Assembly (NCBI GenBank): GCA_945957605.1
Contig: CAMFLR010000006.1
Coordinates: 186,001-250,000 of the forward strand
Source: an uncultured Isosphaeraceae bacterium
GTDB taxonomy: Bacteria > Planctomycetota > Planctomycetia > Isosphaerales > Isosphaeraceae
DNA length: 64,000 nucleotides
Reading direction: 5' to 3'
Within the stretch, counting starts at the first letter, position 1. Every line of letters begins with the position of its first letter. Positions 11,977-45,968 of this stretch are shown here, piece after piece. The position numbers and the translations under genes were made by a program. A model generated the notes under the pieces. That model saw only the letters and a program-made list of their open reading frames with translations. It did not search any database and was not told the DNA's origin.

Positions 11977-14337
11977 TTACTGGTCCGTCTCGATCTTCGC
12001 CCCTTCTTTCCTGGCCGCCTCGACGAACATTGCACCGTTGAAAATATCCTTGGGAAACGCATCAGCTTCAATCTTCTTAACACTCACATGCGAATAAGAA
12101 GGAGCCTCCGACTTGTTATTTGACGGCTTCTCGAGCTCCAATCCGCGTGTGACGACTTCCTCCCAGACCGACACATACCAAGAGCCATTTGACAACTTCT
12201 GAAACGTCTTCGCGTTCACTTCGGTCTTCGTCCAATCTTTTTGCCCCGGCATCATCTCCCACTCGACCTGCTTCACGGCAATGAAATCGTGGTACGGGTC
12301 AAGGGTGAAGATACGAATCCATGGCTGAACGCCACCGTCACCGGTGCCGATTTCGTCTTCCGCGCGGACTACGATCGAACGAGTAGCGACATTCGTCGCC
12401 TTGAGTCGATCGCGACGAATCAGGAGTAGCGGCCACTGTCGCTCGAAGAATTCGGGATATCTGTCGTATCCAGTACCGAGCACATGAAGCTGGCTTCCCT
12501 TGGGCGGAGTAAGCCGTGTAAGGTTGTGAGTTCGCTTGCCGTCGGTAAGCGATACATTCACCGCCTGATCAATGGGCAGCCACGCCGCGATTTGGTCGGC
12601 ATCAAACGCGAATTCTCTTTCGCCCATCACCGCCCGCTCAATATCTTTGGGACGTGGCGTGCGACGCTGATTATCCGCTCGGTAACTGCGTGGTTGGTAA
12701 AGATCAATGGCGTGGAACCTATCCGAAGTTCTTGCGTTGCACCAGTTCTCGACGAATTGCAGACTCGCCGACCAGTATTCGAGCGCGAGGGTCCCCGTGA
12801 AATCGGAGCTGACGACACGCAGATCGCGCGGGAATTTGCGGACGGAGCCTGCCTGCGAATCCAGGATATAGCGAACTTCGGCAGGTACTTCTTCCCAAAG
12901 GGACGACTTTTTCGGCTCGACGTCGACAATCTTAGTGCCTCGCGGAACACCCAGCGCAGCGAGATCGGCAGGGCCGGTGTCCGGATAGTCAAAGGTGGTC
13001 TTCTCGAACTCGGTACCGTACCGGTGCTGGTCCGCAACCTGGTAGCGGCGAAGCTTCGAGACCGGCCGTCGGGTAACATCATCAATCCAAAGTTGCTCTT
13101 TAAGACGAATCGCTCCTAGCGCATCGTGTTCGAAGGAATCGACGCGAACCGCTTTTCGTCCGTCGAGTGTGTCATACACGCAATCCCAGGATAAGGCGTT
13201 TGATTTTTTCGCCTCATCCGGCGTGAAGTAAGGAATCTTGCGGTCCACCTTCGTGAGCAAGTCGAACGCGCCTGGCGGAACCAATCTGCCAAGCGAATCT
13301 CGGATCATTCCGTAGTAATACGCGCCGCGTTTGGTGATGTCACCCTTACCGTTGTATGAATATTGCACATATTTGGCGGTATCCAGCATCGACACGGCAT
13401 TGCCATCGCGACGGAATTCGAGCCCTGTATCAAGATTCACCCATACCTCGGCGCCGCGATCATTTTTCATATGAATCCAGCGCACCGGTTGCAGTTCGAC
13501 TTTCGATTTCGACACTGCAGGTTTGGCCTGCACCGACGCCTTCGGTTCGGGATCGTCCATCATCGCGCGCGTCACTCCGGCTGCGACGATCAGCGTAACC
13601 ACGCCAATCACCGCGGCGAGTTTTGCGGCCGAAAACAATCGCGGACGTATCGTGCGCGCCGCGGCGATCGTCGCTGTCACCCATGCGGCGGGCACCGCGT
13701 CTCGAATTGCGAACGGGAAACGATTCAAAAGCATGATCATAGCTCCGTGACGAGTGAGTTGAGACCGCAACCGATCTCTTGCCCCCGCCAGGCGGCGCCG
13801 GAGTGTCGCCTCGCCGACACGCAAGATCTGAGCAGCCTCGACCTGGGGAACCCCTTCGAGGTCGCACAGAACCAACGCGCGGCGAAACTGCTCGGGTAAA
13901 CGAGCGATCGCTTCGTGCAAGGCAGCGATCGCCTCGTTGTTCATGCTTGTTCCGGAGAACACGCTCATATCGGCTCGGCCGCGTTCGCGAACTCGTCGCC
14001 GGGCCGATTCGCGGCTGCACCGTAGAGCGACGTTGTATGCGACGCGATACAACCAACCGCAGAGCGAATCCTTCACCCAAAGCGCATCGGCCCGTCGCAC
14101 GAGAATGAGAAACGTCGCCTGAAATGCGTCCTCGACGTCGGCTTCGTCGCTCAAAATATCGCGACAGACCGCCGTGACCATTGGGCCGTGGCGCGCCACG
14201 AGCACGGTGAATGCATCTTCATCGCGGTGGTAAACGAACCGCCGCAACAGCGCTACATCCGCCTGCCCCGCGACCGATTTCCCAGAAAACAGCACGTCGA
14301 GATGTCTTACAGCATCTCCTAGCCGAGTCCCTCGCAT
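11977..14337 (-). CDS. Membrane-anchored ECF sigma factor with large C-terminal domain (paralog A)
   Basis: This is a 786-residue fusion. Residues 1-100 form sigma region 2 (VEDAFQATFL in region 2.2, WLYRVAYN in region 2.4). Residues about 135-195 form region 4 with a helix-turn-helix (ARLPEQFRRALVLCDLEG, then AAQILRVGEATLRRRL). The SGKSVAG start and GPMV segment place it in the planctomycete ECF01-Gob type. A single membrane helix spans about 235-258. The last 520 or so residues are predicted to lie outside the cytoplasm and match no domain I know; parts resemble beta-sandwich lipoprotein-like folds. No separate anti-sigma gene is adjacent, so the ectodomain may itself control the sigma part. 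A GGAG ribosome site precedes the ATG. It is a tandem paralog of the next upstream gene. Confidence 0.85.
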   Translation of the reverse strand: MRGTRLGDAVRHLDVLFSGKSVAGQADVALLRRFVYHRDEDAFTVLVARHGPMVTAVCRDILSDEADVEDAFQATFLILVRRADALWVKDSLCGWLYRVAYNVALRCSRESARRRVRERGRADMSVFSGTSMNNEAIAALHEAIARLPEQFRRALVLCDLEGVPQVEAAQILRVGEATLRRRLAGARDRLRSQLTRHGAMIMLLNRFPFAIRDAVPAAWVTATIAAARTIRPRLFSAAKLAAVIGVVTLIVAAGVTRAMMDDPEPKASVQAKPAVSKSKVELQPVRWIHMKNDRGAEVWVNLDTGLEFRRDGNAVSMLDTAKYVQYSYNGKGDITKRGAYYYGMIRDSLGRLVPPGAFDLLTKVDRKIPYFTPDEAKKSNALSWDCVYDTLDGRKAVRVDSFEHDALGAIRLKEQLWIDDVTRRPVSKLRRYQVADQHRYGTEFEKTTFDYPDTGPADLAALGVPRGTKIVDVEPKKSSLWEEVPAEVRYILDSQAGSVRKFPRDLRVVSSDFTGTLALEYWSASLQFVENWCNARTSDRFHAIDLYQPRSYRADNQRRTPRPKDIERAVMGEREFAFDADQIAAWLPIDQAVNVSLTDGKRTHNLTRLTPPKGSQLHVLGTGYDRYPEFFERQWPLLLIRRDRLKATNVATRSIVVRAEDEIGTGDGGVQPWIRIFTLDPYHDFIAVKQVEWEMMPGQKDWTKTEVNAKTFQKLSNGSWYVSVWEEVVTRGLELEKPSNNKSEAPSYSHVSVKKIEADAFPKDIFNGAMFVEAARKEGAKIETDQ

Positions 14338-14447: not shown

Positions 14448-16829
14448 TCAATTCGGCTCGATCTTCGCTCCCTCCTTCTTCGCCGCCTCCAAAAACGCCG
14501 GGCCATCGAAGATCTTGTTAGGAAATTCGTTGGCGCGCAACGGTTTCACGTCGACGCGCGTAAACCCCGTTCTGTCTGGTTTTTTCGTCGGGGGCTTCTC
14601 GCGTTCCAATCCTCTCGTGAGCGTTTCTTCCCAGAGCGACACATACCAGGATCCATTAGGAAGTTGCTTGAACCCTCGTGCGATCTTTACTTCAACTTGC
14701 CAGGAATCGTTGTCGAACTCCTTTCGCCACGTCTCTTCCTTGATCATGGTCCAGTCGTGCGTGGGGTCGATCGTGTGATACTTGGGATACGGCACGTTCT
14801 TATTTCCCACCGAAAGCGTTCCGTTCGACTTGATCACAATTGCACCCGCCGGCGTGTCTGCAGCGGAAGGCATGACTTCCAGATTCATGAGCAATCGGTG
14901 ATAGATCGACCATTGTTCGTCAAAGAGCTGGGGAAAGCTATCGTACGAGTCATCCATCACGTGCACGCGGAGATCATTTTCACCAAAACGCGTCAGGTGA
15001 TACGTCATCTCGCCCGTTGCCAGTCCGGTGTTCGTCGACTTCTTGACGGGAAACCAGGCGGCGACGCGGTCGGAATCAAAACTGCCATCGGGAGCGTTCT
15101 TAAGCGTGGGAAACAGATCATCCGGGCGTTCGCCGAAGTTCTGATTGTCGGCCCGGAAATTCTGGCCCTGCGAATAAGGTAGCGAGCCACGACCGCTGTT
15201 GAGAATTCTATTGCAATATCGATTCACATAATTCTCGGTAACCGACGTATATTCGAGGTGAATCACGCCGCGACGGTCCTTGGTTACAACGCGAAGGTTG
15301 CGGGGAAACTTGCGAATCGCCGCGATTTCCCCTTCGATCACTCGGCGAATCTCCGGCGCTTGATCGGCAATGCGGCTCGATTTCTGCTTTTCGGAATCGA
15401 CGATCGGCAAGTTCTTTGGCACACCGAGCGCAGCGAGATCGCTCGGACCGGTTTCGGGATAGTCGTAATCAATGGTCTGAAAAACCTTGCCGTATTGCTG
15501 CTGTTCGCCGAGCTGGTATCGCTTTTTCTCACGCACCTTGCAGCGAGTTTCGGCGTCGTACCAGGCTTGGCGTCTGATTCGCAAAGCACCAAGCGCATCG
15601 CGTTCCCAAACGTCGAGCCGAATCATTTTGCGGCCGTCGACCGTGTCGAAATTGAAGTCTTGCGGCAGCACCATCGGAATTGCGCGAAGTGCATCGGGCG
15701 TGCGCGAGGGTACGCGCAGTGTCGGTTTGAGCACGAGATCATCGCCACTGGGAACGACGTATCGTCCCAATTCGTCCTTTTGACCACTTAGCCAGCTCAG
15801 ACGCGACTTCACGATCGACTTGCTGTCCTTCTCATACTCAAGCCGCTCGCGTTTTGCGGCGTCGACCATCGTTACGCGATCTTCGAATCGTCCTACTTCG
15901 ATGCCTGTGTCGCAATTCGCCCATCCCTCATCGCCACGATCCGATTTGAAATGGAACCAGCGCACCGGCGTGGTAACGATTGCTTTTTTCACTTCAGGCG
16001 TGGGAGCAGCAGGCTTTGGCATCACCGCAACAGGACGCGGTTCATCGCGGCTTTGGGCCGACGCAATGCTCAGCGCCGAAACCAGGCTGGCGACGATCAA
16101 GACTCCCGCGAATTTCATCAATGACGACGACACCGGCCGAACGAAACGGGCGGCGCGTGCGGTGGCCTCGAGCCATCCGGCCGGCAGTTGGGTCGACATC
16201 CGCAATTGCAAACGATTGAGCAGCATGGGGAGAGCACCGTGGCGGGAAAGGTGGTTTTTGAGCCGTTCCCGCGCGTGGGCTAGCCGCCGCCGCAGAGTCG
16301 CCTCGCCGCAGCGCAACAGTTGCGCGGCTTCGAGCTGCGGCATCCCCTCGAGATCGCACATGACCAGCGGTTTGCGAAACCGCTCAGGCAGCCGGGCGAT
16401 CGCTTCGTGAAGATCGGCGAATTCGTCTGTGTCGGTCGAAGTTTCGGCAACAACGCTGAGATCTGCCGCCGGTTGCTCCCTCTCGCGCAATTTTCCGGCA
16501 TTGCGCCGGACGCGAAGCGCAGTGTTGTAAGCAACGCGGTAGAGCCAGCCTCCCAGCGATTCTTCCACCCAGAGCGAACCCGCGCGGCGGACCAGCGCGA
16601 GGAACGTGGTTTGAAACGCGTCTTCAACGTCGCGTGGATCGCGCAAAATGTCGCGACAGACAGCCCAAACCATCGGGCCGTGCCGCGCAACGATCACGCC
16701 AAACGCCTCTTCGTCCTGCCCGGCGACAAAGCGCCTGAGCAAGCTCGCATCCCCCTGCCCCGCGACCGACTTCCCCGAAAACAGCACGTGAATGTGCCGC
16801 ACCGTCTCGCCGATCCGCGTGCTCGCCAT
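14448..16829 (-). CDS. Membrane-anchored ECF sigma factor with large C-terminal domain (paralog B)
   Basis: This 793-residue protein has the same plan as its downstream neighbour and aligns to it without gaps over residues 1-200. Sigma region 2 includes VEDAFQTTFLALVRRA and GGWLYRVAYNTALR; region 4 includes EAAQLLRCGEATLRRRL. One membrane helix spans about 236-258. The long C-terminal domain shares motifs with paralog A: VRW-x-H/F near its start, TGPSDLAALGVP in the middle, and NGSWYVSLWEE near the end. This ectodomain conservation shows that the whole fusion was duplicated, not only the sigma part. The genes are 110 bp apart with no clear terminator between, so co-transcription is possible. 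The signal sensed and the target promoters are unknown. Confidence 0.85.
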   Translation of the reverse strand: MASTRIGETVRHIHVLFSGKSVAGQGDASLLRRFVAGQDEEAFGVIVARHGPMVWAVCRDILRDPRDVEDAFQTTFLALVRRAGSLWVEESLGGWLYRVAYNTALRVRRNAGKLREREQPAADLSVVAETSTDTDEFADLHEAIARLPERFRKPLVMCDLEGMPQLEAAQLLRCGEATLRRRLAHARERLKNHLSRHGALPMLLNRLQLRMSTQLPAGWLEATARAARFVRPVSSSLMKFAGVLIVASLVSALSIASAQSRDEPRPVAVMPKPAAPTPEVKKAIVTTPVRWFHFKSDRGDEGWANCDTGIEVGRFEDRVTMVDAAKRERLEYEKDSKSIVKSRLSWLSGQKDELGRYVVPSGDDLVLKPTLRVPSRTPDALRAIPMVLPQDFNFDTVDGRKMIRLDVWERDALGALRIRRQAWYDAETRCKVREKKRYQLGEQQQYGKVFQTIDYDYPETGPSDLAALGVPKNLPIVDSEKQKSSRIADQAPEIRRVIEGEIAAIRKFPRNLRVVTKDRRGVIHLEYTSVTENYVNRYCNRILNSGRGSLPYSQGQNFRADNQNFGERPDDLFPTLKNAPDGSFDSDRVAAWFPVKKSTNTGLATGEMTYHLTRFGENDLRVHVMDDSYDSFPQLFDEQWSIYHRLLMNLEVMPSAADTPAGAIVIKSNGTLSVGNKNVPYPKYHTIDPTHDWTMIKEETWRKEFDNDSWQVEVKIARGFKQLPNGSWYVSLWEETLTRGLEREKPPTKKPDRTGFTRVDVKPLRANEFPNKIFDGPAFLEAAKKEGAKIEPN

Positions 16830-28353: not shown

Positions 28354-30201
28354 TCATCGTTTCGCCGTGTGCTTCACAATCACGGGGTGTTTGGTGACGA
28401 CCGGGTGTTTGGGAACGACAACCTTGTGTGATTTCACCGGCGTCTTCTTGGGGGTCTTCGCGCCGACCTTCACTGGAGGTGTCACGACAGGTGTTGATAC
28501 CGCTGGCCCAACAGTGGTCGATACGATGTGGTTCTCACTCGCAACCGGACCAAGGTAGTCGATCTGTGATGGGTCAAACGCCAGGGCATCGGGATCTGAC
28601 TCGGCGTCGAGCAGAGTCGCACGATCGAGAACATCGGAGCCGATCGCACCGTTGGCGATGAGTTGATCGACCGTCGTTGCGTCGAGACTGCCTACGCTCG
28701 TCAACCCAGTGTGGATGATTGGCGTCCCTAAAGCGCGTCCGCCGATGATTGCGCTGATGTAGTTGTTGTTGATCGGGATCCGATCGAATCCGGAATGCGT
28801 CGTGATCGTGATGTCGTAATTGCCGGTCGTCACGCCGTCGCGGCCGCCGACCACCATGATGAAGCTACTCCCGCTCTTGAGATTCGAGATTGTTGCGACA
28901 CCCTGATTATTGGCCCGGGCGACGGAAAGCAGATTCGTGCCAGAGGAGTCGTACATCATGATGACCGGGCTGAGATTGCCAGTCGTCGCCTTCACCGAAA
29001 AGCTCTCGTAGTGGTAGCCGCTCGACAGCGAGGCGTAGGAATAAACCTGGTAATCGCCCTGGCGAGTCAGGTCGCCGAAATGAATTGTTTGGCCGGTCAG
29101 GTTAACGATTGATTCTGAGACCGACGGATCAACCAGGGATGTATCGGCAATCTGTCCAGGTCCTGCATCCTGCGACCGTTTGCCTAGCACGTTCTGAAGG
29201 GTGCGGAAGGAGTTTTGTGTCGCCAAAGTGACGTCTGCCTGCAATGTCGAGTCGTAGTAATGCGGAGTTGGCGAACCGAAGTTCGTGGTCTGGCCGTTGA
29301 AGTTCGCCGAGGTGATTAGCAGGCTTTTATTGGCGACGTAGTTATCGCTCGTGTCGTACGACATGATGTCCGGCGTCGTGCCGACGCCAAGAGCAGTCGG
29401 GTCGCTCCCGCCGTCGCTACGGACGTGCGACAATCCGAATGTATGGCCCGCTTCATGCACGATCGCTTGCCGGATCGTCGCGACGTCGGCGTGCGTGGGC
29501 TGGGCACGAGTCGTGATCGTCGACTGGCACGATAGCGTCCTGGTTGGGTCGTTCGTCGAGCCGAAGGTTGGGTCGATAAAAGCGATGTCGTAAGTATCGG
29601 AGTTGATCGTGTGATCGTCCTGCGACAGGTGAACCTTGCGGAACCCGACAGGGAAGAAGAGATTCACGTTGGCATCGGTTTGGGCGTCGACGAACGCACT
29701 TGGCGTCCACGAATGTGTGCTCTTCGTGAAGGAATAAGGGTTGGCAGTGACCGTTGTGCTAGACGTATCGCTATTACCGCCGATGAATATCGTGGTGTCG
29801 CCGTTACCCTGGCTGTAGTTCCCTGCACCATACGCTCGAACCACTTGAACGTCGAACGGGGCGAACACTTCGGAAACCTGGAACAGAATGTTCTGGATGT
29901 CATCGTTGCGATGCGTCAGATTCGTGTCGCCCGCTTCCGACTCGAACGGGCGGACGGTATCGAAGTTATTGCCGCTCGTGTCCGTCGGGACTTGTCCGCC
30001 GTCGAAGTTCAGATAAAGATGAGTTCCAGGAGTCACATGTCCTAGCAGCGCCGCCGCGTCGGCCACGTCGGTCACCGTCATCAATTTGCGATCTTCAAGC
30101 GCTTCGAGCGAGCGAAACGCACGGTTTTTGCGGCGAATCTTGGCGTTGCGGCGGGTGGTTTCAGAAGCGAAGAAGCAGCGGATTGCAGTAGCCAGAGCCA
30201 T
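28354..30201 (-). CDS. Secreted metzincin-like zinc metalloprotease with LEDR motif and PPC-like domain
   Basis: This is a 615-residue protein. The N-terminus carries the planctomycete LEALEDRKLM motif (about 32-41), thought to mark exported or surface proteins. A protease domain contains HEAGHTFGLSH (about 249-259): three zinc-binding His and a catalytic Glu, followed by the Met-turn DIMSYD. Near residues 385-475 is a beta-sandwich resembling a bacterial pre-peptidase C-terminal (PPC) domain. The tail is rich in Lys, Val, Pro and His (KHPVVTKHPVIVKH), which could bind anionic surface polymers. AGGA precedes the ATG. It is divergent from the sigma factor gene at 30365. Substrate unknown. Confidence 0.85.
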   Translation of the reverse strand: MALATAIRCFFASETTRRNAKIRRKNRAFRSLEALEDRKLMTVTDVADAAALLGHVTPGTHLYLNFDGGQVPTDTSGNNFDTVRPFESEAGDTNLTHRNDDIQNILFQVSEVFAPFDVQVVRAYGAGNYSQGNGDTTIFIGGNSDTSSTTVTANPYSFTKSTHSWTPSAFVDAQTDANVNLFFPVGFRKVHLSQDDHTINSDTYDIAFIDPTFGSTNDPTRTLSCQSTITTRAQPTHADVATIRQAIVHEAGHTFGLSHVRSDGGSDPTALGVGTTPDIMSYDTSDNYVANKSLLITSANFNGQTTNFGSPTPHYYDSTLQADVTLATQNSFRTLQNVLGKRSQDAGPGQIADTSLVDPSVSESIVNLTGQTIHFGDLTRQGDYQVYSYASLSSGYHYESFSVKATTGNLSPVIMMYDSSGTNLLSVARANNQGVATISNLKSGSSFIMVVGGRDGVTTGNYDITITTHSGFDRIPINNNYISAIIGGRALGTPIIHTGLTSVGSLDATTVDQLIANGAIGSDVLDRATLLDAESDPDALAFDPSQIDYLGPVASENHIVSTTVGPAVSTPVVTPPVKVGAKTPKKTPVKSHKVVVPKHPVVTKHPVIVKHTAKR

Positions 30202-30364: not shown

Positions 30365-30967
30365 ATGTCGCAAATCGACTCCCCCGACGTGCCGCAGTTG
30401 GTTGCACGCATCCGCAGTGGCGACTCCCGCGCAGCCGAGGAGCTTGTACGCCGCTACGAACCGCTGATTCGCCGCGAAGTCCGGTTTCGCCTCGAAGACT
30501 CACGCCTGCGCAGGGTGTTCGACTCGATGGACATCTGCCAGTCGGTGCTGGGCAGCTTTTTCCTTCGCGCAGCCGCAGGACAGTTCGACCTCGAAGACTC
30601 AAATCAACTGCCCAAGCTGCTCGTGTCGATCACGCGCAATAAGGTTGCGTCTCAGGCGCGTCGCCAGACCAGCCAGAAGCGCGACCAGCGCCGAAACGCC
30701 GGTAGCGATCCCGACGGCCTCGCCGCCATCCCTGGGCGCGAGGAAACGCCAAGCATGATTGTGGCGGGAGACGAACTGATTCATCGCTTCCGCGCCGGGC
30801 TCGATTCCGAAGAACTCGCGCTCGCTGACCTTCGCGCCGGAGGAATCGGCTGGTCCGAAATTGCCGAGAGACTCGGTGGAACCGCGCAGGCCAGGCGCAT
30901 GCAGCTTGCCCGCGCGGTCGACCGTATGGCGAAGACGCTCGGCGTCGATGGTGCCAGCGATGAGTGA
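30365..30967 (+). CDS. ECF sigma factor of the kinase-linked (ECF43/STK-like) type
   Basis: This is a 200-residue cytosolic sigma factor. Region 2 runs from about 10 to 90: RRYEPLIRREVRFRL, then FDSMDICQSVLGSFFLRA in the place of region 2.2. Region 4 is near 140-190 (LADLRAGGIGWSEIAERLGG). The region 2.2 motif reads D-S-M-D instead of the usual D-A-E-D, so an acidic residue is missing. In kinase-linked ECF sigma factors such as EcfP of Vibrio parahaemolyticus, missing acids are compensated by phosphorylation by the adjacent kinase (PknT). The next gene here is a Ser/Thr kinase overlapping by 8 nt, so the same logic is likely; that is inference. A strong ribosome site sets the start. Confidence 0.88.
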   Translation: MSQIDSPDVPQLVARIRSGDSRAAEELVRRYEPLIRREVRFRLEDSRLRRVFDSMDICQSVLGSFFLRAAAGQFDLEDSNQLPKLLVSITRNKVASQARRQTSQKRDQRRNAGSDPDGLAAIPGREETPSMIVAGDELIHRFRAGLDSEELALADLRAGGIGWSEIAERLGGTAQARRMQLARAVDRMAKTLGVDGASDE

Positions 30968-32606
30968 CGCCTCAGGCAGTTCCGGCGATCTTCGCGACTT
31001 TCAGCGCAGCCGATGGCGCGCGGGCGAGCGAATTCCCGCCGAGGTGCTGCTCCGCGAACACCCTGACATCAACTCGAACCACGACGTCGCCGTCGACATC
31101 ATCTACGGTGAATATCTTCTCCGTGAAGAGCTTGGCGAACATCCCAACATCGACGAATTCGCCCGCCGCTTCCCGCAATTCGCCAACACGTTGCGTGATC
31201 AAATCGCGATCCACGACGCGATGCGCACCCTCCCAACCGGCGACGGCGGAACAAATCCCATTCCCTCCCCCGGCGACGCCACGCTTCACACCCACAGCGT
31301 TCCGCACTCAAACTCGGGCCAGCTTCCGCAAACCATCGGCCGCTACACAATCATCGACCGACTTGGACGCGGCGGCATGGGCACCGTTTACCTCGCACAC
31401 GACCCACAACTCGAACGCAGGGTCGCGCTCAAAGTGCCGCTGTTCGACGACGGCCCGCACGGCCGCACCGCCGCGTGGTTCCGTCGCGAAGCGAAAATTG
31501 CCGCGACCCTGACCCATCCCAACTTCTGCCCGGTCTACGACGTCGGCGAGCACGATGGGCAGCTATTCATCACGATGCCCTTCATCGCCGGCGAAACGCT
31601 CGCCAGCCGACTCGCGCGGGGCGGACCAGTCCCATGCCGTGAAGCCGTCGCCTGGGTGATCAAAATCGCCCGCGCTCTTGCTGAAGCGCACCGAGCGGGA
31701 ATCGTGCACCGCGACCTCAAGCCATCCAACATCATGATCGACGCACGCGGTGAGCCGATCGTGATGGACTTCGGCCTCGCTCGCCGTGAAGCGCCGGACG
31801 TCGACCTGGCAACGCCATTCGGCATGATCGTCGGCACGCCGGCGTATCTCGCTCCCGAGCAAATCGCCGGACCATCCACTCCGGCTGGAGACGTCTACAG
31901 CTTGGGCGTTCTCTTCTACCAGATGCTCAGCGGCAAACCGCCATATTCAGGGAAATTCGAAGACGTGCTTCGAAGCGCGATTCAAGGAAATCCGCCGCCA
32001 CCTTCAGAGATCGTTCCGGGTATTGATCCGCACACCGAAGCGATCTGCCTCAAAGCGATGGACGCCGACCCGCTCGATCGCTTCGATTCGATGGATGCCT
32101 TCGCCAATGCCCTACTCACACCCAAAACTGTGCCGATCGAGCCGCCCACCGCAAAAACGCGACGCAATCGAAGTGTTATGGTTATCGCGGCCATCGCGAT
32201 TATCACGCTAGGTGCCGCAATTGGTTGGAGCCTCTGGTTCCGTCCTGCCCAGTCCCCTGCCGATGCGCTTCAGGCCGGCAGTATTTGGAGCGGAAAATTC
32301 CACTTCCGCCCGCCCGCAGGCGCATATGTCGGCGAAGTCTCGCTTCGCATCACCGAGCGCGAGGGGGATCGATTCGTCGCGACTTATTCAACGGAAAGCG
32401 GCGATTACCAATGGAAGGCGATCGGCACGGTTCAAAAAGGCGAGATCGCGTTCGGCTTCGAGAGTGCAATCCGCGAAAAGGAGCCGCGTGACGTCGTCGG
32501 CCGAGCGAAGGTTTATGGGCATCTTGAAGGGAATACGGCGAAGCTCGTTTTTGACCATGGCATTGATGGCGTGGCTGACATGGAACTCACTCGAACGAAT
32601 CCATGA
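30960..32606 (+). CDS. Ser/Thr protein kinase with membrane helix and C-terminal sensor-like domain
   Basis: This is a 548-residue Hanks-type kinase. The first 120 residues form a helical N-terminal domain (DLRDFQRSRWRAGERIPAEVLL) typical of planctomycete kinases. The kinase domain (about 125-395) shows the glycine loop LGRGGMGTVYLA, the VALK lysine, HRDLKPSNIM and the metal site DFGLA; GTPAYLAPEQ is the substrate loop. One membrane helix follows (about 405-428, IAAIAIITLGAAIGW), then about 120 residues of beta-rich outer domain. All catalytic residues are present. The start ATG lies inside the end of the sigma gene (8-nt overlap), so the pair is translationally coupled. The likely substrate is that sigma factor. 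Confidence 0.93.
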   Translation: MSDASGSSGDLRDFQRSRWRAGERIPAEVLLREHPDINSNHDVAVDIIYGEYLLREELGEHPNIDEFARRFPQFANTLRDQIAIHDAMRTLPTGDGGTNPIPSPGDATLHTHSVPHSNSGQLPQTIGRYTIIDRLGRGGMGTVYLAHDPQLERRVALKVPLFDDGPHGRTAAWFRREAKIAATLTHPNFCPVYDVGEHDGQLFITMPFIAGETLASRLARGGPVPCREAVAWVIKIARALAEAHRAGIVHRDLKPSNIMIDARGEPIVMDFGLARREAPDVDLATPFGMIVGTPAYLAPEQIAGPSTPAGDVYSLGVLFYQMLSGKPPYSGKFEDVLRSAIQGNPPPPSEIVPGIDPHTEAICLKAMDADPLDRFDSMDAFANALLTPKTVPIEPPTAKTRRNRSVMVIAAIAIITLGAAIGWSLWFRPAQSPADALQAGSIWSGKFHFRPPAGAYVGEVSLRITEREGDRFVATYSTESGDYQWKAIGTVQKGEIAFGFESAIREKEPRDVVGRAKVYGHLEGNTAKLVFDHGIDGVADMELTRTNP

Positions 32607-42368: not shown

Positions 42369-42488
42369 GCCAACTGCGCTTAAAGCGACCGCCCAAGAGT
42401 CACAACCGGCCCTCCGTTCGACTATGATCTTACGGAGGGCCGTTTCGTGCATGCCTCGGCACGACCGCCCCGCCGAGGACTCGGACTC

Positions 42489-45400
42489 ATGGCATCAGAA
42501 GCTGATCACACACGCAATCACTTACTTGGTGTTCTCGCGCTCCGCATGGAGTTCGTCACGCGCGACGCGATGCGTAGGGCGCTCAAAATTTGGGAGGCTG
42601 ACCGAACGAGGCCGCTCGGAACGATCCTCCTCGAAGCGGGTTCGCTGCATCCCTCGCGTGCCTCGCTGCTCGAAACCCTCGTCGACGAACATCTGCAAGT
42701 CCACGGCCCCGGCTCGCGCTCCCCGGATGAAACTGTCACCGAGTTAAACAGCAAAACGAACATCGACCTGCAATCAACTCTCGAACAATTGCTGAGCGAA
42801 GCACCCGCAGCGCCCGTCGCCGAAGCAAACGTTGCCGACATCGGCAACATGGCGACCATTGCCGACCCCGAACTCGCCGAGCCTGTGGTTGAAGACGATC
42901 CGTTCGCGACTGTAACCGAGGCTTCCGCGCGAAAAGCACTCGGCAATGCCAAAACAATGGCGAACCAGGTCGATCCCTCAAGCACGCATAGTAAAGCAGG
43001 AACAAGCGCCGAGCTATCACCTGGCAGTTTGCATCCAGCTCCCGTAGCTGAACCTATTTCCGCCTTTCACGCGGGCGCAACGCCACTGCGTTACAGCATC
43101 GTCAAGCACCACGCCAAGGGTGGGCTCGGCGACGTCTACATCGCGCGCGACAAGGAGTTGGCCCGCGAAGTCGCCCTCAAGGAAATTCAGGAACGCTACG
43201 CCGACCGCAACGACAGCCGCCAGCGATTCATCTTCGAGGCCGAGATCACCGGCCGGCTCGAACATCCCGGAATCGTCCCCGTCTACGGCCTTGGCGCCTA
43301 TGCCGACGGACGACCGTATTACGCGATGAAGTTCATCAGCGGCGAGACGCTGCGCGATGCGATCGACCGCTTTCACCTCGCCGACGAAAACGGTGGACGC
43401 AACCCCGGCGAACGCGAGGTCGCCCTCCGCGAATTACTCGGCCGATTCATCGATGTTTGCAACGCCATTGGTTACGCCCACAGCCGAGGGATCCTGCACC
43501 GCGACATCAAGCCCGGCAACGTGATGGTCGGCAAGTTCGGCGAAACGCTCGTCGTCGACTGGGGCCTCGCGAAGGCGATCGACCGCCCCGACATCGCCGT
43601 CAGTGGCGAAACTGAAGACGCTCCGCTCAAACCATCTTCCGGCGGTGGTTCGACACCAACGTTGGCCGGCTCAGCCATCGGCACCCCGCAGTTCATGAGT
43701 CCCGAGCAAGCAGCCGGTCGGCTCAACGAAATGGGCCCCGCCGCCGACATTTACAGCCTGGGTGCCACGCTCTACGCCCTGCTTTCCGGCGAGTCACCAT
43801 TCAGCGAACATTCGACAATTGTCGTGCTTGAAAAGGTCAAGAAGGGTGAATTCAAACCTCCGCGCGAGATCAACCCTCTCGTACCCCCAGCGCTGAATGC
43901 GATTTGCCTCAAGGCAATGTCCCTGGCATCTGCGGACCGGTATGGCAGCACGCGCGAGCTCGTCGTCGACGTCGAACACTGGCTGGCCGACGAGCCTGTC
44001 TCCGTCTACCAAGAACCACTTTCCAAGCGCGTCCAGCGCTGGGCGAAACGGCACAAGCAGGCGGTTGTGGGTGGTGCGGCCGTGGCACTCACGCTGTTTG
44101 TTTCACTGATCGTCAGCAACCGCCTGATCGCACAGGAGCGCGACCGTACGATCATCGCCAAGCGCGAGGCCGACACGCACTACACCCAGGCGCGTACCGC
44201 AGTCGAAACGATGCTCGACGAAGTTGGCGCGATCGACCTGGCCGATGTCCCGCTGATGGAACCAGTTCGCCGCCGCATGCTCCAATCCGCGGCCGAGTTC
44301 TATCAGGAGTTCCTCAAGACGCGATCACAAGACCCTGCCCTTCAATTCGACATCCTTCGCTCGCACGGACGTCTGGGTGAAGTCCAGGAGCTTCTGGGCG
44401 ATTACAAGGCGTCGGAAGCGTCATATCAAGCAGCAATCACCGCTTATAATCAATTGAACGACACACAAAAAGCCGATCCCGTATTTCAACGCGCGCTCGC
44501 TTCGGCCGAGTTGGGGCTTGGGATCGTACAGAAAAAATCAAACCGATTCGTAGAAGCTGAGTCGAGCCTGAGAAAGGCAATCGAAACCCGCGAAAAGATT
44601 GTTTCGAGCACGAACTCACCAAACGATCGCCGCGAGGCCGCGCTGAATCTCTATCACCTCGGCGCGATCCTCGCACGTCAAAAAACACGATCCGACGCCA
44701 ACGAGAAAACGTATCGTGCCGCGCTCGATGAACAACGTGCACTCCTCAATCTGCTTCGCGGCCAGAAAAACTCGGATCTCCGGCGCGACCTCGCGCGGAA
44801 CCTGAATAACCTGGGAATCCTCCTGCGAATCGAGGATCCGAAAGCCGCGCTCGCCGCTTTCAACGAAGCGTATGACTTGCAAACCGCACTTGAAAAAGAA
44901 TCACCGACGAGTCCATCCTACGTGTGGCAAGCAGCCCGCACAGCTTCCAATATTGGCGGCTTGCTTTCGCTCATGGGCGAAAACAACCTGGAAAAAGCGG
45001 GCGACTTCTTGAATCGGGCGCGGTCGCGTTTTCAAAAACTCGTCGCCGATTTTCCCAAAATCCCCGACTATCGCCAGGAACTCGCCGCCACCGAGAATAA
45101 CCTCTCTCAGCTCGCGCTCGACGACTTTTACGGTGAAGATCCGGGCAAGAAACCGGAAATGCTCGAAGCTCATTTCCTTCTCGCGAAGCAACTCATCGAT
45201 CACGCAGTCGAGCTCCGCGAGACCCTCGTGCGCGACTTCCCGACGCGTCCCGACTATACGCAGGCTCTTGCCATCGCGCTACGCCAGCGTGCTGAAATCT
45301 TGCGGCTTGAAGCTCAGCAAAAGAGCGAAGCAGAACGTGCGGCAGTGCTCGACACAGCCGCCACGATCATCACGCGGTCGATCGACCTGCAAGCCAGCCT

Positions 45401-45968
45401 GCTCAAGCAGTTTCCAACCGCGCGAGACTACGACCTCGAACTCGCTCGCAGCCACGATGAGGCCGGCCAAATCGCCGTGCTCGCGTCGCTCAGTCAGGCG
45501 AGCGGTAACCGCCTTGCCGATGCTGCGGAACACTTCCAGCAAGCGGTCGATCTCATCAAGGTCTCGCTCGCGTCCAATCCAAAGTCGAAATCGATGCGCC
45601 GCCAGCTTGGTGAAGTGGTGCAAAATCTTGCATTTGTGCATCTTGATCGCAAAGAACTCGCCAAGGCGGTCGACGCGATCGAGGTCGCGGTCACAAGTTT
45701 GGCTGACGATCCCAGCGAACTCGAACGCGCCGCGGCAGCTTATGCCAAGGCCGTCGAGATCGCACAAAATGGCGCACCGAGCGACGGCAAAACGACCGCC
45801 GACAGTCTCGCCGCTCGCAGCGTCAGCTTGCTGGAACAGGCCAACAAGGCGGGAACGATTTCTCCCGCCGAGTTGGCCAAGCCTGTTTACGTGCCGCTAA
45901 AAGATCGCGCCGACTTCAAACGCGTGAAGCAAGCCATCGAGGCCCGAGCGAAACAGCCCGTTGGCTGA
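42489..45968 (+). CDS. Ser/Thr protein kinase fused to TPR-like repeats
   Basis: This is a 1159-residue protein. The N-terminal part (HLLGVLALRMEFVTRDAM...LGTILLEAGSL) is a helical module seen at the start of many planctomycete kinases. A linker follows, and the kinase domain runs from about 200 to 500: AKGGLGDVYIARD, the VALKE lysine, HRDIKPGNVM near 336 and DWGLAK near 356 (Trp replaces the usual Phe of DFG). GTPQFMSPEQAAGR completes the activation loop. A membrane helix lies near 525-548, then about 600 residues of TPR-like helices on the other side. The ATG at 42489 has GAGGA upstream. It likely pairs with the TPR protein before it. Its stop lies 3 bp from the end of the convergent barrel gene. 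Confidence 0.93.
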   Translation: MASEADHTRNHLLGVLALRMEFVTRDAMRRALKIWEADRTRPLGTILLEAGSLHPSRASLLETLVDEHLQVHGPGSRSPDETVTELNSKTNIDLQSTLEQLLSEAPAAPVAEANVADIGNMATIADPELAEPVVEDDPFATVTEASARKALGNAKTMANQVDPSSTHSKAGTSAELSPGSLHPAPVAEPISAFHAGATPLRYSIVKHHAKGGLGDVYIARDKELAREVALKEIQERYADRNDSRQRFIFEAEITGRLEHPGIVPVYGLGAYADGRPYYAMKFISGETLRDAIDRFHLADENGGRNPGEREVALRELLGRFIDVCNAIGYAHSRGILHRDIKPGNVMVGKFGETLVVDWGLAKAIDRPDIAVSGETEDAPLKPSSGGGSTPTLAGSAIGTPQFMSPEQAAGRLNEMGPAADIYSLGATLYALLSGESPFSEHSTIVVLEKVKKGEFKPPREINPLVPPALNAICLKAMSLASADRYGSTRELVVDVEHWLADEPVSVYQEPLSKRVQRWAKRHKQAVVGGAAVALTLFVSLIVSNRLIAQERDRTIIAKREADTHYTQARTAVETMLDEVGAIDLADVPLMEPVRRRMLQSAAEFYQEFLKTRSQDPALQFDILRSHGRLGEVQELLGDYKASEASYQAAITAYNQLNDTQKADPVFQRALASAELGLGIVQKKSNRFVEAESSLRKAIETREKIVSSTNSPNDRREAALNLYHLGAILARQKTRSDANEKTYRAALDEQRALLNLLRGQKNSDLRRDLARNLNNLGILLRIEDPKAALAAFNEAYDLQTALEKESPTSPSYVWQAARTASNIGGLLSLMGENNLEKAGDFLNRARSRFQKLVADFPKIPDYRQELAATENNLSQLALDDFYGEDPGKKPEMLEAHFLLAKQLIDHAVELRETLVRDFPTRPDYTQALAIALRQRAEILRLEAQQKSEAERAAVLDTAATIITRSIDLQASLLKQFPTARDYDLELARSHDEAGQIAVLASLSQASGNRLADAAEHFQQAVDLIKVSLASNPKSKSMRRQLGEVVQNLAFVHLDRKELAKAVDAIEVAVTSLADDPSELERAAAAYAKAVEIAQNGAPSDGKTTADSLAARSVSLLEQANKAGTISPAELAKPVYVPLKDRADFKRVKQAIEARAKQPVG

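Follow-up and report, generated by a model that had tools for sequence, protein, structure and literature searches.

An ECF sigma factor with serines in region 2.2 and its overlapping Hanks-type kinase gene: a further sigma-kinase pair of a planctomycete type

Does a Ser/Thr kinase whose gene starts inside that of an ECF-type sigma factor control this sigma factor, and do serines in the altered region 2.2 of the latter serve as the switch? The question is raised by a locus of the window, i.e., the whole stretch of 64,000 nucleotides analyzed here, which belongs to contig 6 of an 8.8-Mb genome and carries both genes on the same strand. A sequence-only reading had proposed that phosphorylation restores a missing charge, as in EcfP of Vibrio parahaemolyticus. 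The sigma factor gene comprises:

30365..30967, plus strand: ECF-type sigma factor gene (200 aa, ATG 30365, stop 30965-30967, PF07638)
30521..30544, plus strand: region 2.2 octet D53-S54-M55-D56-I57-C58-Q59-S60 (by translation), which in alignments falls on the contact stretch around Q-E in ECF sigmas of solved structure
30524..30526, plus strand: Ser54 codon, a weak candidate for a phosphosite; the predicted region 2.2 helix begins at the next residue
30542..30544, plus strand: Ser60 codon, at the usual Glu position; best charge-switch candidate
30746..30754, plus strand: T128-P129-S130 in the linker between sigma2 and sigma4, conserved whether or not a kinase is linked, with a similar motif in TIGR02984-type sigmas
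30960..30967, plus strand: 8-nt overlap of sigma stop and kinase start, ATGAGTGA (from the sequence)

The sigma gene has an AGGAGG-type site just 5' of its ATG, and its product matches PF07638 (Sigma70_ECF; 54.4 bits versus a gathering cut-off of 21.1), whereas its score against TIGR02984 (Sig-70_plancto1) stays far below the curated cut-off (40.7 versus 183.75 bits). A sigma-70 promoter scan around the sigma-kinase pair gave no match. The predicted structure (mean pLDDT 76.7, 12 sequences) matches the ECF sigma fold, AlgU and sigma-E among others, at Foldseek E-values no better than 0.0063, and sigma-E region 2 alone gave a target TM-score of 0.67 against it; the region 2.2 helix is predicted at residues 55-70, with Ser60 inside it and Ser54 directly before. 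Translation confirmed that residues 53-60 read D-S-M-D-I-C-Q-S and that, compared with D-A-E-D-L-V-Q-E, two acids are absent (Met55 and Ser60) and two serines present, with D53 and D56 kept. Position 60 corresponds to a core-binding Glu in sigma-70 and canonical ECF sigmas. At the third motif position, an acid is not universal in canonical ECF sigmas, since Escherichia coli sigma-E reads D-V-P-D-V-V-Q-E and Pseudomonas aeruginosa AlgU E-A-Q-D-V-A-Q-E; therefore, only the change from Q-E to Q-S departs from DxxDxxQE, the consensus quoted for ECF region 2.2 (PMC13147305).

Relatives were gathered by a contig scan (14 loci, the 14 named relatives all being planctomycetes) and then by searches of 40, 119, 198, and 397 genomes, draws that overlap. 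The clade was defined as the 141 distinct sigmas scoring at least 150 bits against the profile of the window sigma's family, sequence duplicates being dropped. A sigma was called linked when a same-strand kinase domain started downstream at a distance of no more than 1500 nt, a call made by proximity only, so that unlinked sigmas may have a kinase far away. On this basis 116 members were linked, in nine the kinase lay at another place in the locus, 14 had no kinase, and two, without room downstream, were left out, giving an unlinked set of 23. Among the 116 linked members, both D53xxD56 acids are present in 113, Gln59 in all, and Ser or Thr at position 60 in 109, with Asp or Glu there once and Ala in four (L009, L011, L012, and L019); position 55 is Ser or Thr in 16. 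The octet is carried unchanged by 23 of the linked and 4 of the unlinked sigmas. Of 45 genomes in the same family, 16 contain the DNA pattern for D-S-M-D-I-C-Q, which is absent from the single other genome of the same genus. Since D53/D56, Gln59, and Ser/Thr at positions 54 and 60 recur across the linked members, DSMDICQS is, by alignment, a family signature and no local oddity. Furthermore, Ser60 hardly varies among these members, a single one having Glu/Asp, which suggests selection against a permanent acid at this position. Because the DxxD acids are retained in the window sigma and in nearly all of its linked relatives, the charge of the region is reduced, not missing; thus, of the EcfP-like scheme proposed earlier, a kinase-coupled sigma with conserved region 2.2 serines is supported, and the restoration of a lost charge is not.

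The kinase gene starts, as previously noted, 8 nt inside the sigma gene (ATG 30960, the sigma stop ending at 30967). An in-frame ATG at exactly -8 occurs in 36/116 linked clade members and at -4 in 14/116; judged from this recurrence of both octet and coupling in the family, the overlap is more than chance. The kinase gene comprises:

30960..32606, plus strand: Hanks-type Ser/Thr kinase gene (548 aa, PF00069 146.4 bits)
30981..31229, plus strand: N-terminal helical domain without a family name (N-domain; profile, AF2 pLDDT 87.9); candidate sigma-recognition module
31338..32114, plus strand: catalytic domain, about residues 127-385 (Pfam/NCBIfam profiles, motifs)
32172..32240, plus strand: one transmembrane segment, predicted at about residues 405-427 (19-residue hydropathy window peaking at 2.23)
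32241..32603, plus strand: C-terminal region, presumed extracytoplasmic from its position after the membrane segment; candidate sensor

The P-loop (GRGGMGTV, residue 136), VALK (155), HRDLKPSN (250), DFG (270), and APE (298) motifs are all intact, and by these motifs (P-loop, VxxK, HRDxKxxN, DFG, and APE) the protein is a Hanks-type Ser/Thr kinase. Neither the stretch preceding the catalytic domain nor the one following the membrane segment had a Pfam match above cut-off; for the C-terminal region, Pfam gave only a weak Allene_ox_cyc match below cut-off, and one relative was found among the fetched loci (L223).

The overlap, the 116 of 141 clade members with a kinase directly downstream, and the intact catalytic motifs together describe a sigma-kinase pair that is co-translated and of a type widespread among planctomycetes. 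Given this linkage and what is known of the family, the kinase probably controls the sigma factor. In the explanation that we favor, the membrane-anchored kinase would sense a signal through its C-terminal part, its N-terminal helical domain would recognize the sigma factor, and the kinase would phosphorylate the latter and thereby switch it; phosphorylation near the region 2.2 helix may tune binding to the RNA polymerase beta' clamp, with Ser60 proposed as the first site, Ser54 as the second, and the linker as the third. We infer the action of the kinase on the sigma factor, its site, the sign of its effect, and the role of the N-domain, and we put the probability of the explanation as a whole at about 0.5.

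The N-domain spans about 85 residues (W-x-x-G-E-R-x-x-V-E-x-Y-L ... D-L-I-Y-x-E-x-x-L-R-E ... E-Y-x-x-R-F-P) and precedes the catalytic domain in 116/116 clade kinases (profile search, E 0.001). It had no match in Pfam or NCBIfam, and no published description of it was met in literature searches aimed at other subjects. It is predicted as six helices; its sequence profile matched only designed helix bundles in the PDB, and fold comparisons gave a best Foldseek E of 5.4 and, in a second comparison, a best Z of 4.7, to TPR-like helical arrays, matches too weak to be informative. Further relatives of the domain are A3, L273-L284, and L285-L314. In this genome, 116 kinase hits were merged into about 104 genes, of which 28 start no more than 1500 nt downstream of a sigma gene, the sigma list comprising all 42 PF07638 places plus four further TIGR02984 places; the N-domain is found in 10 of these 28 and in 1 of the 76 others (p 4.6e-6), as detected with a profile that was built from sigma-linked kinases and may be biased towards them. 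In four other genomes, where 30 of 47 N-domain places were fetched and 29 of the 30 were readable, 17 of the 29 kinases have a sigma gene directly upstream, three have one divergent, and nine have none adjoining.

Distances were compared for 133 of 151 pairs, 18 being dropped. Within the clade, sigma distance correlates better with that of the N-domain than with that of the catalytic domain (r 0.64 vs 0.37, n=108), whereas outside it the order is reversed (0.85 for the N-domain vs 0.94 for the catalytic domain, n=25), and nearest-neighbor agreement with the sigma is about equal for the two kinase domains (58/133 and 50/133). These values hint at a tighter tie of the N-domain to the sigma inside the clade but not outside. 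Exchange of catalytic domains under a fixed sigma/N-domain unit was also considered and rejected: the first correlations (r 0.73/0.72 vs 0.38/0.40, in 96 and 95 pairs) fell to 0.70 vs 0.54 with 133 of the 151 pairs and were reversed outside the clade, and clustering into kinase types revealed no repeated exchange, so that it stays a hint. Overall, the N-domain is a candidate sigma-recognition module and, on these profiles, the most useful and most testable new lead of the pair.

The same domain admits another role, in which the kinase is a holder: the N-domain would keep the sigma factor at the membrane in the manner of an anti-sigma factor, phosphorylation of the kinase by itself or of the sigma would release it, and the region 2.2 serines would be lineage variants. 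The company that the N-domain keeps with sigma genes, both here and in the four other genomes, and the closer correlation within the clade are consistent with this, as is the fact that a sigma with its DxxD acids could bind core polymerase unmodified. Nevertheless, about a third of the N-domain kinases of the four genomes (9/29) have no adjoining sigma, and the catalytic domain tracks the sigma better outside the clade with nearest neighbors about equal; the absence of an anti-sigma fold among the weak N-domain matches counts for little. We consider this alternative rather unlikely.

Turning to the switch itself, the serines had been put forward as natural phosphosites, and their conservation is in part consistent with this. 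Ser60 is not tied to the kinase: Ser or Thr occupies this position in 109/116 linked and 20/23 unlinked sigmas (p 0.37), and the state is unchanged in 10.4 of 11 tree-independent linked/unlinked pairs, so that as a marker of kinase linkage it was rejected, since it tracks lineage. In a wider set of 227 sigmas, Ser/Thr60 is present in 132/151 beside N-domain kinases and in 1/27 beside other kinases, as well as in 10/11 with a kinase elsewhere in the locus, 11/32 with none, and 5/6 without room downstream; on the tree, this association of N-domain and Ser60 is largely that of one lineage, with too few independent pairs for a test. Beside kinases lacking the N-domain, position 60 is Glu or Asp in 21/27 sigmas; therefore, a sigma can be kinase-linked with its acid in place. 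The persistence of Ser60 in sigmas without a downstream kinase, its replacement by Ala in four linked ones, and its constancy on the tree count against Ser60 as the switch. We hold as rather unlikely the bolder proposal of a planctomycete-wide module in which the N-domain recognizes the sigma and phospho-Ser60, at Q-E and not at DAED, switches polymerase binding.

Another view takes DSMDICQS as neutral variation of the lineage: the sigma would need no phosphorylation for full competence, and the kinase would be a sensor that is transcribed along with it but acts on other substrates. In its favor, the sigma retains both DxxD acids and Gln59, unlinked relatives still carry Ser60, and Ser54, which lies just before the predicted helix start, has six substitutes across the clade (Pro, Thr, Asn, Glu, Ala, or Trp). 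Against it, Ser60 is near-invariant, with an acid in one of the linked members, and we regard neutrality as rather unlikely.

Ser54, by contrast with Ser60, goes with the kinase in the raw counts: Ser or Thr occupies position 54 in 110/116 linked versus 16/23 unlinked sigmas (p 0.0012), the latter made up of 8/9 with the kinase divergent or further off and 8/14 with no kinase in reach; linked sigmas against these 14 give p 0.0003 with no tree correction. The tree-aware comparison had 3-4 supported independent pairs and no power. Serine is a favored helix-capping residue, and since the helix is predicted to start at residue 55, Ser54 would be in the capping position. One relative, L178 (3081-3671), reads DENDICQG, with Glu54 and Gly60 and no kinase within about 3 kb in either direction, a natural phospho-mimic-like case and a single example. 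The EcfP mechanism as such, in which phosphorylation within the DAED equivalent (Ser54) supplies the missing charge, can draw on these counts and on the Glu54 of this kinase-less relative, but the position of EcfP's phosphosite is Met55 in the window sigma, acids flank Ser54 on both sides, the independent pairs are too few, and helix capping can account for the serine, which makes it very unlikely. Among the candidates, then, Ser60 would be best on chemistry and Ser54 on linkage counts.

Two other sites were tried and rejected. The linker T128/S130 is not kinase-specific, because Ser/Thr130 occurs in 75/116 linked and 19/23 unlinked sigmas; Ser64 is present in 82/116 linked versus 8/23 unlinked sigmas, but the tree pairs go both ways.

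Around the pair, a reprolysin-like metallopeptidase gene (28354-30201, minus strand; PF13583, 23.3 bits) lies about 160 nt from the sigma gene in divergent orientation and is possibly a target or a neighbor of the pair. Further off, two adjacent genes (11977-14337 and 14448-16829, both minus strand) encode proteins of ~790 aa in which a full ECF sigma domain, regions 2 and 4 included, is followed by about 590 residues without a Pfam match at 0.001. In a 1173-aa kinase with tetratricopeptide repeats (42447-45968, plus strand), the Pkinase match does not begin until profile position 9; about a dozen of the genome's other kinases share this late start, and together they are perhaps a distinct kinase type. 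The sigma-downstream kinases of this genome fall into at least three kinds by the sigma motif, i.e., DSxDxxQS with the N-domain, D[AP]SDVVQ[ED], and ECF43-like Q[PA]TALVHEA.

Should a single recognition domain and a single switch position be common to a whole lineage of such pairs, a large part of planctomycete signaling would become predictable, the scale in this genome being the 28 of about 104 kinase genes that lie directly downstream of an ECF sigma gene; Ser60 would then add one more phosphorylation point to the contact between sigma and polymerase.

Direct phosphorylation of an ECF sigma by an adjoining kinase is documented for EcfP and EcfK (PMC8999054, PMC13147305), in support of the explanation favored here. 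EcfP has STTA instead of the acidic stretch, and its second Thr carries the phosphate (PMC8999054); EcfK (QATE) is described as phosphorylated at T51 and four linker sites, T51A alone being still functional (PMC13147305). With these ECF43 pairs, EcfP/PknT of V. parahaemolyticus and EcfK/PknS of Xanthomonas citri, the window pair shares an ECF sigma beside a Hanks-type transmembrane kinase, here with an 8-nt gene overlap, and a region 2.2 that departs from DxxDxxQE with Ser/Thr present. However, ECF43 sigmas lose the DxxD acids, whereas D53 and D56 are kept here, and their phospho-Thr stands at the third motif position (QTTA/STTA), where the window sigma has Met55; the latter is altered at the later Q-E (Q-S), in contrast to the DAED position in EcfP. 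Two defining ECF43 features are thus lacking, and because the phosphosite is Met, with Ser/Thr there in 16/116 only, the ECF43 scheme is not transferable residue for residue. The contrast is also internal to this genome, where Q-[PA]-T-A motifs occur in six kinase-linked (L023-L028) and three unlinked sigmas (L029-L031), which are like ECF43 by motif resemblance only and form a group outside which the window sigma falls. The window kinase has an N-domain without a Pfam or NCBIfam match, from which no contrast with PknT or PknS is implied.

The window pair also shares phylum and kinase linkage with the planctomycete groups ECF59, original ECF60, ECF61, ECF62, and ECF217, named as phosphorylation groups (PMC8999054). 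For ECF59 and original ECF60, a review states that serine phosphorylation restores charge (PMC8103513); the idea of the sequence-only reading is therefore that printed proposal applied to a new member, and the window pair is a further case of a known sigma-kinase type. Finally, the TIGR02984 sigmas (planctomycete subfamily 1, D-[AP]-S-D-V-V-Q-[ED]) share the phylum, frequent kinase linkage, and a [ST]-P-S linker motif; they keep Glu/Asp at position 60, where the window sigma has Ser60, and most of their linked kinases in this genome are without an N-domain match, whereas the window kinase has the N-domain.
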